Assembly (NCBI RefSeq): GCF_900156625.1
Contig: NZ_FTOB01000003.1
Span: 186,001-250,000 of the forward strand
Origin: Zobellia uliginosa
GTDB lineage: Bacteria > Bacteroidota > Bacteroidia > Flavobacteriales > Flavobacteriaceae
Direction of reading: 5' to 3'
DNA length: 64,000 bases
Below, piece after piece: positions 52,952 through 58,746 of this stretch (position 1 is its first letter; each line of letters opens with the position of its first letter). The translations under genes and the position numbers were made by a program. The notes under the pieces were generated by a model that had not been told where the DNA came from, did not search any database, and saw only the letters and a program-made list of their open reading frames with translations.

Positions 52952-53509
52952 TTACCGTTCTTTTGGGCAGTTGCAATTGATGTGGAGCCGTTGGGAAGTT
53001 GCTTGTCCGTTAACGAGTTGCACGATAAAAAGACTGCCGTTGTCACTGTCGTCCATTTCGTAATAAAGGTCTTCCCCAATCATCTTGTTTACAAATTCCG
53101 GGGTAGTATTACTGTGGCCGACCACTAAAACTTTTTTACCGAGGTTATCGGTCTTGAATTGTTCTATGTCAACATTCTGTGGTTCGTAGTAGGTGACATC
53201 GAGTTCTTTTTTTACCGAAGTGGGCGCCGCCGTCATTGAGGTTCGCTCGTAATCAGTGGTGTATATGGCGTCTAAATCTACGTCGTCGAGAATTTCGGCC
53301 CAGTGCATGGCCCTGCCGAGGCCTCGCTGGTTGAGTTCGGGATCTACATTTTCTGGGTCGGAACGGTCTTTTTCGGCATGCCGTATAAAATAAAATGTAG
53401 ACACCACGTCTTTGGTGATGTTTTCTTGCGTAACTTTTTGCTCGTCTTTACAACTGGTAAAGATTAAAGGTATACATAGAATTATGTATAATGATTTGAT
53501 CCATTGCAT
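52952..53509 (-). CDS. Histidine phosphatase family lipoprotein
   Basis: A 185-residue exported phosphatase of the branch-1 phosphoglycerate mutase-like group. The N-terminus has a lipobox Cys20 (LIFTSCKDE). The catalytic R-H-A/G is FIRHAEKDR (Arg43, His44), Arg89 is in TTDYERTSMTAAPT, and the second catalytic His132 is in LVVGHSNTTPE. All four pocket residues are visible. The substrate is unknown. It is a single gene on the minus strand, divergent from the PorP-like gene. Confidence 0.9.
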   Translation of the reverse strand: MQWIKSLYIILCIPLIFTSCKDEQKVTQENITKDVVSTFYFIRHAEKDRSDPENVDPELNQRGLGRAMHWAEILDDVDLDAIYTTDYERTSMTAAPTSVKKELDVTYYEPQNVDIEQFKTDNLGKKVLVVGHSNTTPEFVNKMIGEDLYYEMDDSDNGSLFIVQLVNGQATSQRLHINCNCPKER

Positions 53510-53608: not shown

Positions 53609-55339
53609 ATGCTCAGACTTATACTCTCAATTCTTCTGTTTTCGTTCTTTTTGGTTCTTCAGGGGCAAGATGCACGTCTACCTGCCGACCTAAGGCAGCA
53701 TAACCTTACCACGTATAATGCAAGTCTGTTCAATCCGGTGTTTTCACTAGATAGAAACAATGCCAATTCCTTGGCTTATTGGGTGCGTTGGCAGTGGCAG
53801 GCCATTGATGGAAACCCCACGACACAGTTTTTGAACTATACGCGAAAATTGAACAATAAGTCTACCGTAGGTGCAGCATTCTTTCAGCAAAACACGGGTA
53901 TTTATTTTGATACGGGCGGGGTGGTCAACTATGCGCAGAGCTTTGACCTGAACGAATCGGTAAAACTGGGAGTGGGTGTCAATATTTTTGGCTTTCAACA
54001 ATCCTTGGCCGACGATCGGTTTACGGTCGATCCTGATTTTCCCTTACCACAATCTTCTTCGTCCGCCGATGATTTTATCCTACAGGTGGCACCGGGCATC
54101 AGTCTTAGCGTAGAGCGACTGACTTTGGGGTTTGCCTCAGAAAACCTGATCGATTATAATTTTACGGAAAGGGAAGCGAACACGGAAAAAGAGGACAAAG
54201 TCTTTATGGGGCTTGTTTCTTACGATTTCCCTTTGACCTTGGGGACGGCTATGAATGCCTTTTTAAGACCGTCGATGTATTTGCGTACCATTCCGGGCGA
54301 ACCTAACCAAATAGGATTTAATGCACTTTTGAATACGAATAAATATTGGGGCCAATTGGGCTACAATAATTTTTATGGATACGGAGTAGGGGTGGGTGCT
54401 ACTTTTTTTAAGCATTTGTCATTAGGGGCCTTGGTTGAATTCGGTGCCGATTCATCTATAAGTTCCGAATCTTCCTTTGAGCTTATGGCCGCTTACTTTT
54501 TTGGTAAGCCCGAAGAGCGACATACAATGGTGGGTTATGTGGCTCCGGAAGAAAACGAATTGGAGCGAATAGAATCTGCCGAGGAAGCGGTTCAAGACGA
54601 TGACGTGGAGGAAGAGGTGGAAGAGGCCGAAGAATTGGCCGAAATATCCAAGGCGGTCGAGAAAGAGGCCAAGCGGGAAGAAAAAAGACGCCGCAAGCTT
54701 GAGAAAATGGCGCAGGATTCCGTAATAAAAGCCGAAAAGGAAGCTGCATTGGCACTCAAGAAAGAGCAGAAACGCCTTAAGAAAGAAGTAGAGGAACAGA
54801 TAGAGAAAGAAGAGGCCTTGGCGAAGGCAGGGGAAAAAGAGGAAAAGACCCAAGGAGGTAAGCGAGATGCAAAGGCCCAAGAGGCGGAACAAATTAGAAA
54901 ACTGGACTCTATTAATCAGGCGAAGCGGGAAGCGGCAATTGCGGCCGCCCGGAAACTAGCGGAAGAAAAACGAAAAGCCGAAGCGGCAAAGGCAGCGAAG
55001 CAGAAAGCCGAAGAAGAGGCAAAACTGGCCCAGCAGAAAGAAGTAGTGACGCCACGAAAAGGTGAGAAGTATGAAGAGGTACAAACGGAAGAGGGATTGG
55101 CACCGGGCTATTATTTGATAGCAAATGTATTCGGGACCAAAAAGTACTTCGAGGCCTTTATGGCAGATATGAAAAGCAAAGGATTACAGCCTAAGTCTTT
55201 TGTGCGTAGCAAAAACAAATACAACTACGTATACCTAGGTCGTTATGATACCATGGGGCAAGCCAGACAGGCCAGGGATGGCAAGTTCGATGGTAAGTAT
55301 ACCGGTAATACATGGATTTTTAGGGTGGTAGGGGAGTAA
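53609..55339 (+). CDS. PorP/SprF-type outer-membrane protein with TolA-like helix and SPOR domain
   Basis: A 576-residue protein. In order: signal peptide (1-19, ending LQGQ), a PorP/SprF-type beta barrel (about 25-305; NASLFNPVFSLDRNNANSLAYWVRWQW start, NFYGYGVGVGATFFKHL near the end), an acidic segment (about 315-350, EEEVEEAEELAEI), a long Ala/Lys/Glu-rich helix like TolA (about 345-490) and a C-terminal SPOR-like domain (about 500-576; APGYYLIANVFGTKKYFEAF, YVYLGRYDTMGQARQA). PorP/SprF proteins work with type IX secretion. Here a barrel in the outer membrane would be joined to a periplasmic rod that binds denuded peptidoglycan. It stands alone, without porK, sprA or OmpA genes nearby. Confidence 0.85.
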   Translation: MLRLILSILLFSFFLVLQGQDARLPADLRQHNLTTYNASLFNPVFSLDRNNANSLAYWVRWQWQAIDGNPTTQFLNYTRKLNNKSTVGAAFFQQNTGIYFDTGGVVNYAQSFDLNESVKLGVGVNIFGFQQSLADDRFTVDPDFPLPQSSSSADDFILQVAPGISLSVERLTLGFASENLIDYNFTEREANTEKEDKVFMGLVSYDFPLTLGTAMNAFLRPSMYLRTIPGEPNQIGFNALLNTNKYWGQLGYNNFYGYGVGVGATFFKHLSLGALVEFGADSSISSESSFELMAAYFFGKPEERHTMVGYVAPEENELERIESAEEAVQDDDVEEEVEEAEELAEISKAVEKEAKREEKRRRKLEKMAQDSVIKAEKEAALALKKEQKRLKKEVEEQIEKEEALAKAGEKEEKTQGGKRDAKAQEAEQIRKLDSINQAKREAAIAAARKLAEEKRKAEAAKAAKQKAEEEAKLAQQKEVVTPRKGEKYEEVQTEEGLAPGYYLIANVFGTKKYFEAFMADMKSKGLQPKSFVRSKNKYNYVYLGRYDTMGQARQARDGKFDGKYTGNTWIFRVVGE

Positions 55340-55426: not shown

Positions 55427-56023
55427 TTAGTTTTTAAGCTCCTTTTTTATTAAGACCTCGAGGTAGGCGATGGTGTTGACCAGATATTTTTTGTCACCGG
55501 TCATAGTGGCCATGGCAATAGCTCCTTGTATCATAGTAAAAAGTTGCTTGGCAAATTGGAGAGGGGGCACTGGAAGCTTGATTTCGTTATTCTTGACCCC
55601 GTTCTCGAAAACCAGGGCAATTTTACCTTCCACCTCTTTAATGGCTTCCTTGTTCGCTGCGGCCAGTAGCCTATTGTTGTATTGGGCGTCTACGCCGGTA
55701 TTCAGTATCGGGCAGCCTCCCATGCTCAAGGTAAACGAATCGTAATTTCTGTAGAAATCCGTTAGTTTGAATATTTTGTCCAAAGCCTTGCTTTCCGAAG
55801 CCAATACTTCGTCTATTTTGGAGAGTAACAAGTTGCTGTTGTACTGGAAAGCGGAAAGGGCCAAAGCCTCTTTGTTTTCAAAATTACCATATATGGCGCC
55901 CTTGGTCAATCCGGTAGCTTCCGTAAGGTCGCTCATGCTTGTGCCGATATAACCATGTTTGTTGAATACGGAGGCAACGGTCTTAATAATAAAGGCGGTG
56001 GTTCTTTCTGCTTTGGTCGACAT
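55427..56023 (-). CDS. TetR/AcrR family transcriptional regulator
   Basis: A 198-residue one-component regulator. The N-terminal helix-turn-helix is clear: AFIIKTVASVFNKHGYIGTSMSDLTEATGLTKGAIYGNFENKEALALSAF (description only; positions 9-58), with the GAIYGNFENK recognition-helix end. The C-terminal ligand/dimer domain is all helical and ends with a TetR_C-like AKQLFTMIQGAIAMA segment. No effector gene is adjacent on a shared promoter, so its target is unknown. It lies between the convergent PorP-like gene and clpB. Confidence 0.93.
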   Translation of the reverse strand: MSTKAERTTAFIIKTVASVFNKHGYIGTSMSDLTEATGLTKGAIYGNFENKEALALSAFQYNSNLLLSKIDEVLASESKALDKIFKLTDFYRNYDSFTLSMGGCPILNTGVDAQYNNRLLAAANKEAIKEVEGKIALVFENGVKNNEIKLPVPPLQFAKQLFTMIQGAIAMATMTGDKKYLVNTIAYLEVLIKKELKN

Positions 56024-56145: not shown

Positions 56146-58746
56146 TTATTTCACCAATTCGTCTTGATTTCTAAAAACCAGTGCATCGTTAAATGAATCG
56201 ATAAGCACGATACTGTCGGCTTTTATGGTGCCGCTCAAGAGTTCTTTGGAAAGGTTGTTCAGCACTTCCCGTTGTATTACCCTCTTGATCGGACGGGCTC
56301 CGTACTGTGGGTCGTAGCCCTTGTTGGCCAAGTAATTGATAGCCTCTTCCGTAGCATCGATGGTAATATGTTGCTTCGCAATGGTTTTCTTTAAACTGTT
56401 TAACTGTAGTCTAACAATTTTGGAAATATCCTCGCGACTAAGCGGTGAAAACATGATGATGTCATCGATACGGTTAAGGAACTCTGGGCGTATGGTTTTG
56501 CGTAAGAGTCCTAGTACCTCCACACGTGCGGCTTCCGCAGCGCTAAAGGGGTCTTTATTGTTCTCGTATTTTTCCTGAATAATACTGCTGCCCATATTAC
56601 TGGTCATGATGATGATCGTATTCTTGAAATCGGCAACACGTCCTTTATTGTCCGTAAGCCTTCCTTCATCCAACACTTGTAATAAAATATTGAAGGTATC
56701 GGGATGGGCCTTTTCTATTTCATCGAGCAAAACCACGGAATACGGTCTTCTACGAACCGCTTCCGTAAGCTGGCCGCCTTCATCGTAGCCGACATATCCT
56801 GGAGGTGCACCGACCAATCTACTTACCGAGTGGCGTTCTTGATATTCGCTCATATCGATACGCGTCATGGCGCCTTCATCATCAAAAAGATAGGAAGCCA
56901 GGGTTTTGGCCAATTCGGTCTTACCGACCCCTGTCGTACCAAGGAACAGGAACGAACCGATAGGCTTGTTGGCATCTTGTAATCCGGCGCGACTTCTTCT
57001 AATGGCGTCGGATACGGCCATAATGGCTTCTTCTTGGCCTACGACCCTTTTGTGTAGTACATCTTCTAGTTTCAAGAGTTTTTCGCGTTCACTCTGTAGC
57101 ATTTTGGTAACGGGTATACCGGTCCATTTGGCCACGACTTCCGCGATGTCTTCGTTCGTTACCTCTTCTTTGATCATGGTGTCGCCCAACTGTTGCTCAT
57201 CGAGCGCTTTTTGGAGTTCTTCCAGTTTTTCTTGGGCTTCTTTGATCTTTCCGTACCTGAGTTCGGCTACTTTGCCGTAATCTCCGTTTCGTTCGGCGCG
57301 TTCGGCCTCATTTTTGAATTCCTCTATGTCTTGTTTCGTTTTTTGGATTTCATCAACGACCGATTTTTCACTTTCCCACTTGGCAAAGAGTTCGTTTCGG
57401 TCTTCCTTGAGGTTTGCCAAATCAACGTTCAATAATTTGAGTTTAGCCTTGTCGTTTTCCCTTTTAATGGCTTCGATCTCAATCTCCAATTGCATGATCT
57501 TACGGTCAAGAACATCTAGTTCTTCCGGTTTGGAGTTGATTTCCATCCGTAATTTAGATGCGGCCTCGTCCATGAGATCGATCGCTTTATCGGGAAGGAA
57601 GCGATTGGTGATATAGCGTTGCGAAAGCTCGACCGCGGCAATGACCGCTTCATCTTTGATACGGACCTTATGGTGGGCCTCGTATTTTTCCTTAATACCG
57701 CGCAGAATGGAAATGGCACTCTCGGTATCGGGCTCGTTTACCACTACTTTTTGAAAACGCCTTTCAAGGGCCTTGTCTTTTTCGAAATACTTTTGGTATT
57801 CATCAAGGGTCGTGGCTCCTATGGCCCGGAGTTCCCCACGGGCCAATGCCGGTTTTAAAATGTTGGCGGCATCCATGGCTCCTTGTCCGCCACCGGCTCC
57901 TACCAAGGTGTGTATCTCGTCAATGAACAATACGATATCGCCATCTGAGGAAGTAACTTCTTTGATGACCGATTTTAAACGTTCCTCAAACTCACCTTTG
58001 TATTTGGCCCCTGCAATAAGGGCTCCCATATCTAGGGAATAGATAATTTTATCTTTTAAATTTTCAGGAACATCGCCTTGAACGATCCTATGGGCCAAGC
58101 CTTCTGCGATGGCAGTTTTACCAGTACCCGGTTCGCCTACCAAAATAGGGTTGTTCTTTGTTCTTCTCGATAAGATCTGGAGTATACGTCGAATTTCTTC
58201 GTCACGTCCGATTACCGGGTCCAATTTACCGCTATCGGCCAATTCGTTAAGGTTTCGGGCATATTTATCAAGTGAGTTGTAGGTGTCTTCGGCACTTTGC
58301 GAGGTTACCTTTCCGCCTTTGCGCAACTCTTCTATTGCCGCTTTTAAGTCTTTCTCGGTGGCTCCTTGGTCTTTTAATATGCGCGAAATTTTACTGCTCG
58401 ATTTTAGGATGGCCAATAATAGGTGTTCAATGGAAACGAATTCGTCATCCATCTTCTTGGCAATGATACTGGCTTCGTTCAGGGTTTTACCTGCTTCGCG
58501 CGACAACATAAGGTCGCCTCCCGAAACTTTTGGAAAACTCTCTAGCTCCTTTGCTAAAATTTGTTGAAGCAAGGCTATGTTAATGTTCAGTTTTTTTAAA
58601 ATGAAGGGAAGTACATTTTCGTCGACTTCCCAAATGGCTTTGAACAAGTGTTCGTTTTCAATTTGTTGGTGGCCCAAACCCTGTGCAATCTGCTGGGCTT
58701 GCTGAATGGCCTCCTGTGATTTAGTGGTGTAATTATTAAAGTTCAT
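56146..58746 (-). CDS. clpB: ATP-dependent disaggregase ClpB
   Basis: An 866-residue Hsp104-class chaperone that pulls proteins out of aggregates together with DnaK. The Clp N domain covers 1-145. NBD1 begins near 160 with Walker A GEPGTGKT (204-211), the long coiled-coil M domain is about 410-530, and NBD2 has [15 protein letters not shown], Walker [13 protein letters not shown], a sensor segment [11 protein letters not shown] and C-terminal AAA lid. The absence of an IGF/ClpP loop and the presence of the M domain separate it from ClpA/ClpC. No CIRCE or other heat-shock operator was recognised upstream, but a hairpin is present. Confidence 0.98.

Follow-up and report, generated by a model that had tools for sequence, protein, structure and literature searches.

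The barrel-rod-SPOR gene and its surroundings

The window, a stretch of 64,000 nucleotides of the Zobellia uliginosa genome, carries at positions 53,609–55,339 of the forward strand an intact reading frame of 576 amino acids, which was assigned to the SprD-like PorP/SprF carriers by means of ORF calling, profiles and a tree of related barrels. The protein starts with a putative signal peptide (aa 1–20; 53,609–53,668), recognized from the sequence and modelled as a single helix at residues 2–20, followed by a PorP/SprF outer-membrane barrel (aa 35–296; 53,711–54,496), a helical rod rich in Ala, Lys, Glu and Arg (aa 335–475; 54,611–55,033) and a C-terminal SPOR-fold domain (aa 489–576; 55,073–55,336), all encoded on the forward strand. 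The Pfam PorP_SprF profile matched residues 35–296 with 147.4 bits (E 7.7e-43; cut-off 22.3), spanning profile positions 13–273 of 273, and the NCBIfam T9SS_PorP_fam profile scored 154.3 bits (cut-off 90.55), a whole-barrel match above the curated cut-offs that places the protein in the PorP/SprF family. The Pfam SPOR profile matched residues 500–557 with 17.7 bits in the context of the whole protein, under the cut-off of 21, and with 23.3 bits, over this cut-off, when the last 91 residues were scanned alone. The linker between both domains, inside which the rod lies, comprises about 190–203 residues, 71% of them A/K/E/R/Q/D. Kinship of the rod with TolA was rejected, as the NCBIfam TolA score of 14.8 bits (cut-off 59.45) came from the rod only and reflected its composition. 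No OmpA-type domain was listed among the Pfam matches with E up to 1, which separates the protein from PorE, and its sequence has no cysteine downstream of residue 25.

The predicted structure revealed the same organization. The AlphaFold2 model was built on a 20-row alignment that included the query (A1), in which the barrel and the SPOR domain aligned throughout while the linker failed to align. It presented barrel strands at residues 54–297, rod helices at 335–412 and 421–475, and, at 500–573, the β-α-β-β-α-β succession of the RNP-like SPOR fold with block pLDDT values of 89–95, or 96 when the SPOR part was modelled alone. The pTM was 0.48 and the pLDDT fell below 50 at residues 305–320 and 322–336, so that the model does not fix the relative placement of the parts. 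Foldseek searches against the PDB related the barrel to OmpG and other porins, to FadL and to chain 8gl6_F of a T9SS translocon complex, which we take to be PorV. For the SPOR part, the best Foldseek rows were CwlC, BPSS2145 and RlpA, none with E below 0.001, and VIA-align ranked BPSS2145 (Z 8.6), DedD (6.7), RlpA with denuded glycan (6.1), RlpA (6.0), DamX (6.0) and CwlC (5.9) first, before a fall to 3.9, with FtsN at 3.2; five of these six best matches are named SPOR or wall-binding domains, and the top one, BPSS2145, is an exported protein whose title does not mention SPOR. A PDB sequence search with the SPOR profile gave two chance-level matches, neither of them SPOR, and no match to the query was found among the PLSDB plasmids.

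Profiles and AlphaFold2 model thus agree on a PorP/SprF barrel, a helical linker and a C-terminal SPOR fold in a single chain, and this composition, put forward in the original prediction, is confirmed. The structure prediction proposed there as a check places the barrel in the N-terminal part and the SPOR fold at residues 500–573, and the tether-like architecture said to be masked by a plain PorP label is borne out by the domain make-up.

Fusions of this kind were widely distributed. A protein search of 120 genomes of the same family returned matches, to any part of the query, in 112, and the query's own type was counted from the listing in 18 of the 120, Z. uliginosa included. Among named genomes, 255 relatives were detected, and the 80 best, ranked by their match to the fused alignment, were analysed; the nearest among them were four Zobellia, and many were from Maribacter. 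According to our own profiles, each of these 80 joins a barrel to a single SPOR domain within the same frame, which rules out an artefact or frame error behind the fusion. A complete ORF was present in 79 of them (502–674 aa), and the linkers measured 127–301 residues. Since the 80 were ranked by the whole fused alignment, they demonstrate that the fusion is conserved and give no measure of how often it was lost. The search for the same domain order that had been suggested is thereby answered: the protein is no unusual one-off and belongs to a conserved family that includes SprD. Beyond the family, one frame of 450 aa from another family of the same class (L258:1498–2850) matched both PorP_SprF (185 bits) and SPOR (36.3 bits) above the cut-offs, so that the barrel-SPOR fusion is wider than the query's family. 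A cut sequence from another family of the phylum (L257:2–646) also has PorP and SPOR in one frame, with only the end of the barrel present.

The neighbourhood of the gene is conserved as well. It is flanked on the reverse strand by genes that we take to encode a SixA-like histidine phosphatase (52,952–53,509), a TetR-like regulator (55,427–56,023) and ClpB (56,146–58,746), found within four ORFs in 80, 76 and 72 of the best 80 relatives, respectively; an SmpB gene lay within four ORFs in 73, some contigs being short. We know of no link between the SixA-like phosphatase and the T9SS. No PorE was found within four ORFs in any of these 80 relatives.

Kinship with SprD

SprC and SprD have reportedly been known as gliding genes since 2011. 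According to a 2022 review, SprD is needed for gliding spread and the role of SprC and SprD was called unknown (PMC9389320). The published gene order is sprC-sprD-sprB-sprF (PMC9723704). The Z. uliginosa genome has 13 PorP/SprF genes, three of them with long frames: the query, L009 5574–7685 and L010 4844–6718. The L010 product (624 aa) matched SPOR with 24.3 bits, above the cut-off, and that of L009 (703 aa) has two SPOR-like repeats according to our own profile, with a Pfam SPOR score of 19.7 bits, below the cut-off of 21. An Ig-rich protein of 771 aa that bears a type B signal (CHU_C) precedes the L009 barrel, which is directly followed by a gene starting at contig position 332,685, which by its length is the start of the 4874-aa SprB frame, after which comes SprF with a Cys-Arg-Cys tail. 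By the published gene order, L009 5574–7685 is thus assigned as the SprD of this genome. The query, placed between the SixA-like and the TetR/ClpB genes, does not have the gene order of an SprD orthologue.

SprD itself is taken to be composed of a barrel, a long rod and a SPOR-like domain. This reading comes from a gene of genome G319 (L269) that has an Ig-rich protein of 494 aa on one side and a long SprB-like frame on the other, and whose product of 1635 aa comprises a PorP_SprF match of 137.5 bits, about 1240 residues of which 81% are A/K/E/R/Q/D, and a SPOR-like end. Its last codons, GKMAIVKVEN plus the stop, make exactly 33 bp, and the published primer for the 3' end of sprD in F. johnsoniae, placed at its last 33 bp (PMC9870892) and translated by hand, has GKMAIVK in frame; gene order and C-terminus together support the assignment. 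The SPOR-like end of L269 had no Pfam SPOR match and was found with the profile of a second alignment (A2) of 36 rows, which includes two divergent SprD-type ends, 17 and 21% identical to the query. The open-access literature searched was not found to state that SprD has this barrel, rod and SPOR-like make-up, nor did it yield a relevant paper tying a SPOR domain to PorP/SprF, type IX secretion or Flavobacterium gliding.

For a quick maximum-likelihood tree, 102 PorP/SprF barrels were cut before the rod and the SPOR domain; SH-aLRT served as the measure of branch support, and the program warned of long branches. One branch (SH-aLRT 99) separated all 28 SPOR-fused rows, two Flavobacterium-type SprD among them, from the remaining barrels. 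The query fell in a group of nine (97), sister to a group of 19 that holds SprD and the L010 type (95), a placement by which it is considered a paralogue of SprD. It shares with the SprD of Flavobacterium the barrel clade and the joining, within a single polypeptide, of a PorP barrel to an A/K/E/D-rich rod and a SPOR-like domain at the C-terminus; however, SprD belongs to the operon remF-remG-sprC-sprD-sprB-sprF, whereas the query represents a sister lineage at another locus devoid of sprC and sprB, and its linker of about 190–203 residues contrasts with the approximately 1240 residues in L269.

Periplasmic attachments and cargo genes

Two other inward links of PorP/SprF barrels are described in the literature. 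The cysteines of SprF bond to GldK of the gliding track (PMC12635249), and PorE, which binds PorP, contains a domain for peptidoglycan binding (PMC9143113). We compared 11 genomes, reading the neighbourhoods of 100 barrels where PF11751 searches list 101 (13 from Z. uliginosa and 88 of 125 rows from the others); our own profile missed one weak 24-bit row, and the other 37 rows, from G018, G075 and G104, were left out. Twenty-six barrels were SPOR-fused, 34 had an OmpA-type PorE directly adjacent, 21 carried a Cys-x-Cys motif in their last 45 residues and 19 had none of these, while no barrel had two attachments. None of the 26 fused barrels had an OmpA-type PorE neighbour or a Cys-x-Cys tail, nor did any OmpA-bearing PorE occur within two same-strand ORFs of a fused carrier; in the 74 unfused barrels, the PorE-OmpA neighbour was present in 34 and the cysteine tail in 21, never both. 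The statement in the original prediction that PorP/SprF proteins normally act with separate partners is partly right: the separate partner PorE, with its OmpA domain, is absent beside all 26 SPOR-fused barrels. As for PorE-like proteins, 35 had the OmpA domain and four lacked it, all four adjoining SPOR-fused carriers of the L010 type; L105 and L121, close to this type, had no PorE-like match alongside. Fisher tests gave p 5e-6 for OmpA and 4e-3 for the OmpA-less PorE, treating as independent genes that are related.

The mutual exclusivity of the attachments is a computed result, and it rests on few independent events, since the SPOR and Cys-x-Cys classes each form a single clade, the latter with its 21 rows set apart by a branch of SH-aLRT 96. 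Taken together with the known SprF-GldK and PorE links, the pattern suggests that the SPOR tail stands in place of two known attachments. SprF, the SprB carrier, shares the barrel family with the query, although its tail is short, periplasmic and ends the protein with Cys-x-Cys (PMC12635249) instead of a rod and a SPOR domain. Similarly, PorP and PorE of Porphyromonas gingivalis link a barrel to a wall-binding module, but in that species a protein of its own, PorE with an OmpA-like domain, provides the module (PMC9143113), whereas in the query it is fused and has the SPOR fold.

The Cys-x-Cys clade consists of two sublineages, SprF and a type represented in Z. uliginosa by an orphan PorP/SprF gene with a Cys-Tyr-Cys tail (L012:2399–3478, C6); by analogy, its product may be a second track-bound carrier, perhaps like Fjoh_1677 of F. 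johnsoniae. In another genome (G040; L149 and L150), CTD, PorP and PorE genes form repeated cassettes in which three of the four barrels are identical, and both ends of its single contig seemingly carry copies of one cluster.

Fused carriers were more rarely paired with a cargo gene: a type B CTD lay directly upstream of 12 of the 26 fused barrels vs 63 of the 74 unfused ones. No such gene directly precedes the query in its own genome or any of the best 80 relatives, 77 of which have more than 2.5 kb of upstream sequence, and a CTD ORF three ORFs away was seen in one of the 80. In genome G077 (L131:2762–9548), three tandem SprD-like carriers of the query's lineage, the first to branch off in it, occupy the locus of the query, with TetR- and ClpB-like genes alongside. 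They lie behind the gene of an Ig-rich type B CTD protein of 724 aa, at a gap of 10 bp, and this protein is 29% identical to the SprC of Z. uliginosa over 584 aa (E 2.6e-77). A profile of the SprC family detected SprC in all 24 chosen genomes (in two pieces in four of them and in two frames in G071); a second full-length SprC was found only in G077, that is, in one of the 18 genomes with the query's lineage and none of the six without it. That the query has as its own cargo a second full-length SprC was rejected for Z. uliginosa, whose only SprC at E up to 1e-10 is the one by SprD, the weaker profile matches being other type B proteins. Cargo lacking a linked carrier gene nevertheless exists, because nine of the 18 type B CTDs of this genome (17 above cut-off) are, by their coordinates, not directly before a PorP gene. 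In F. johnsoniae, moreover, a single orphan carrier is shared by three orphan cargos whose genes are not linked to it (PMC12618676).

The SPOR-like domain and its proposed hold on the cell interior

The query domain shares its fold with the SPOR domains of RlpA, DamX, DedD and CwlC, from which it differs in a sequence near the Pfam threshold and in the apparent loss, seen through the alignment to L013, of the residues that read glycan. In RlpA, denuded glycan is recognized through its muramic carboxylates by Q270, R302 and R309, R311 lying in the same basic patch, and most of the glycan contacts are main-chain (PMC6895207). A SPOR protein of Z. uliginosa, L013, which served as alignment reference in place of RlpA, has a Gln and an Arg-x-Arg that would correspond to those of the glycan site. 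Opposite these, the query family has Ala505 (28 of 36 domains) and Tyr540 and Tyr542 (36 of 36 each). A specificity of the query-type domain for denuded glycan is, by this comparison, not supported, and with it the originally predicted binding to denuded glycan typical of division sites, as Gln and Arg-x-Arg seem to be replaced by Ala and Tyr-x-Tyr. Given the main-chain nature of most RlpA contacts, the query domain may still bind glycan.

The same SPOR variant was also encountered in other proteins. About 25 kb before SprD in Z. uliginosa, a PorE homologue with PD40, carboxypeptidase-like and OmpA parts (L267:7194–9728, C16) has one near its N-terminus (aa 76–130), scoring 16.6 bits with Pfam, below the cut-off, and 79.7 bits with the A2 profile; in G347 (L272), a gene of the L267 type lies behind a CHU_C protein and a PorP. 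A LysM-repeat protein of G319 (L268:3275–5185) carries the variant C-terminally (45 bits with the A2 profile), next to another protein that by eye resembles a LysM protein. Similarly, a secretin scoring 102 bits with Pfam (L270:4107–5966, G180), from another family of the phylum, has a C-terminal match to the variant found by the A2 profile at E 1e-10, with a Pfam SPOR score of 14.5 bits, below the cut-off, and is located behind genes resembling, by eye, pilus or type II secretion parts.

The best explanation, to which we give about an even chance, is that the query is an SprD-family T9SS carrier with its own periplasmic attachment, peptidoglycan being the likeliest grip. It is favoured by the barrel family and fold, the SPOR fold, the single clade of SPOR-fused barrels that holds SprD, the exclusivity of the attachments, the OmpA-less PorE-like proteins found solely beside fused carriers, the SprC-related cargo gene ahead of the G077 copies, and the occurrence of the SPOR variant in a PorE homologue and a LysM protein. 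Architecture, fold, family and exclusivity are computed results, whereas we infer the topology, the cargo binding and the ligand: the N-terminal barrel, in the outer membrane, would receive a type B cargo, SprC-like or other, from SprA, the translocon, and keep it at the cell surface as other PorP/SprF proteins do, and the C-terminus would leave the barrel on the periplasmic side, as the literature states for SprF. The helical rod would then extend inward with the SPOR-like domain at its tip, and this tail would replace PorE and the twin-cysteine tail as the carrier's periplasmic attachment, probably gripping the glycan strands of peptidoglycan through a binding face unlike that of RlpA. Several observations stand against this reading. 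No type B CTD gene directly precedes the query or any of the best 80 relatives, and a second full-length SprC is confined to one of the 18 genomes with its lineage. The glycan-reading residues of RlpA seem not to be conserved, OmpA-less PorE-like genes occur beside only 4 of the 26 fused carriers, and the exclusivity derives from few independent events. SprC was also reported to move on the gliding track (PMC12635249, citing a thesis). SprC is, by gene order, the likely cargo of SprD, and if SprD carries it, the tail of SprD cannot be a fixed anchor, so that a static wall anchor fits badly with a mobile SprC.

The wall is kept as the first choice of ligand for the query, and the track is its main rival: in the same carrier, the SPOR-like domain would be a protein-binding module docking on the moving track, on the GldJ/GldK/GldN side, and the cargo would be mobile. 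The membership of the query in the SprD family, the reported movement of SprC, the need for SprD in gliding spread, the other grip that fused carriers without a Cys-x-Cys tail would require, and a denuded-glycan patch that seems gone next to a Tyr-x-Tyr invariant in 36 of 36 domains all point in this direction. However, SPOR or wall-binding domains make up five of the six best matches in fold, and the same SPOR variant occurs in LysM or OmpA proteins, though those already have a wall binder; docking on the track is considered rather unlikely on balance.

It is improbable that the query acts as a strut between outer membrane and wall without any cargo, its lineage having lost the SprC partner and kept barrel, rod and SPOR domain. 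The lack of a cargo gene directly upstream in the best 80 relatives, the absence of a spare full-length SprC from 17 of the 18 genomes with the lineage and the conserved gene order with SixA-like, SmpB, TetR and ClpB genes are consistent with such a strut, but the barrel is well conserved in A1, and both the F. johnsoniae carrier with three unlinked cargos and the 9 of 18 type B CTDs of Z. uliginosa with no PorP gene directly behind them speak against it. A division-site tether through denuded glycan, despite the SPOR fold and the RlpA-denuded glycan complex among the best matches, is very improbable, as the Gln and Arg-x-Arg of the glycan site are seemingly replaced, the gene family is linked in the loci read to T9SS/gliding genes and not to division genes, and no division-related features were seen in the query locus.

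Returning to the carrier with its own periplasmic attachment, a broader proposal, which we regard as rather doubtful, is that PorP/SprF carriers have three mutually exclusive inward couplings and that the SPOR-like tail, as in SprD and the query, derives from a wall-binding fold repurposed for a new ligand, bound via its invariant Tyr-x-Tyr face, in such a way that the carrier runs along or passes between the wall and the moving track. The proposal bears on the question of how gliding Bacteroidota hold and move their surface adhesins. If true, the three-coupling reading would explain the requirement for SprD in gliding, and carriers with a built-in periplasmic arm would provide both SprD and the query with a concrete, testable function. 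Moreover, the three-way exclusive pattern predicts from the sequence of a carrier which of three partners it should be attached to: the wall, the track or the ligand of the SPOR-like domain.
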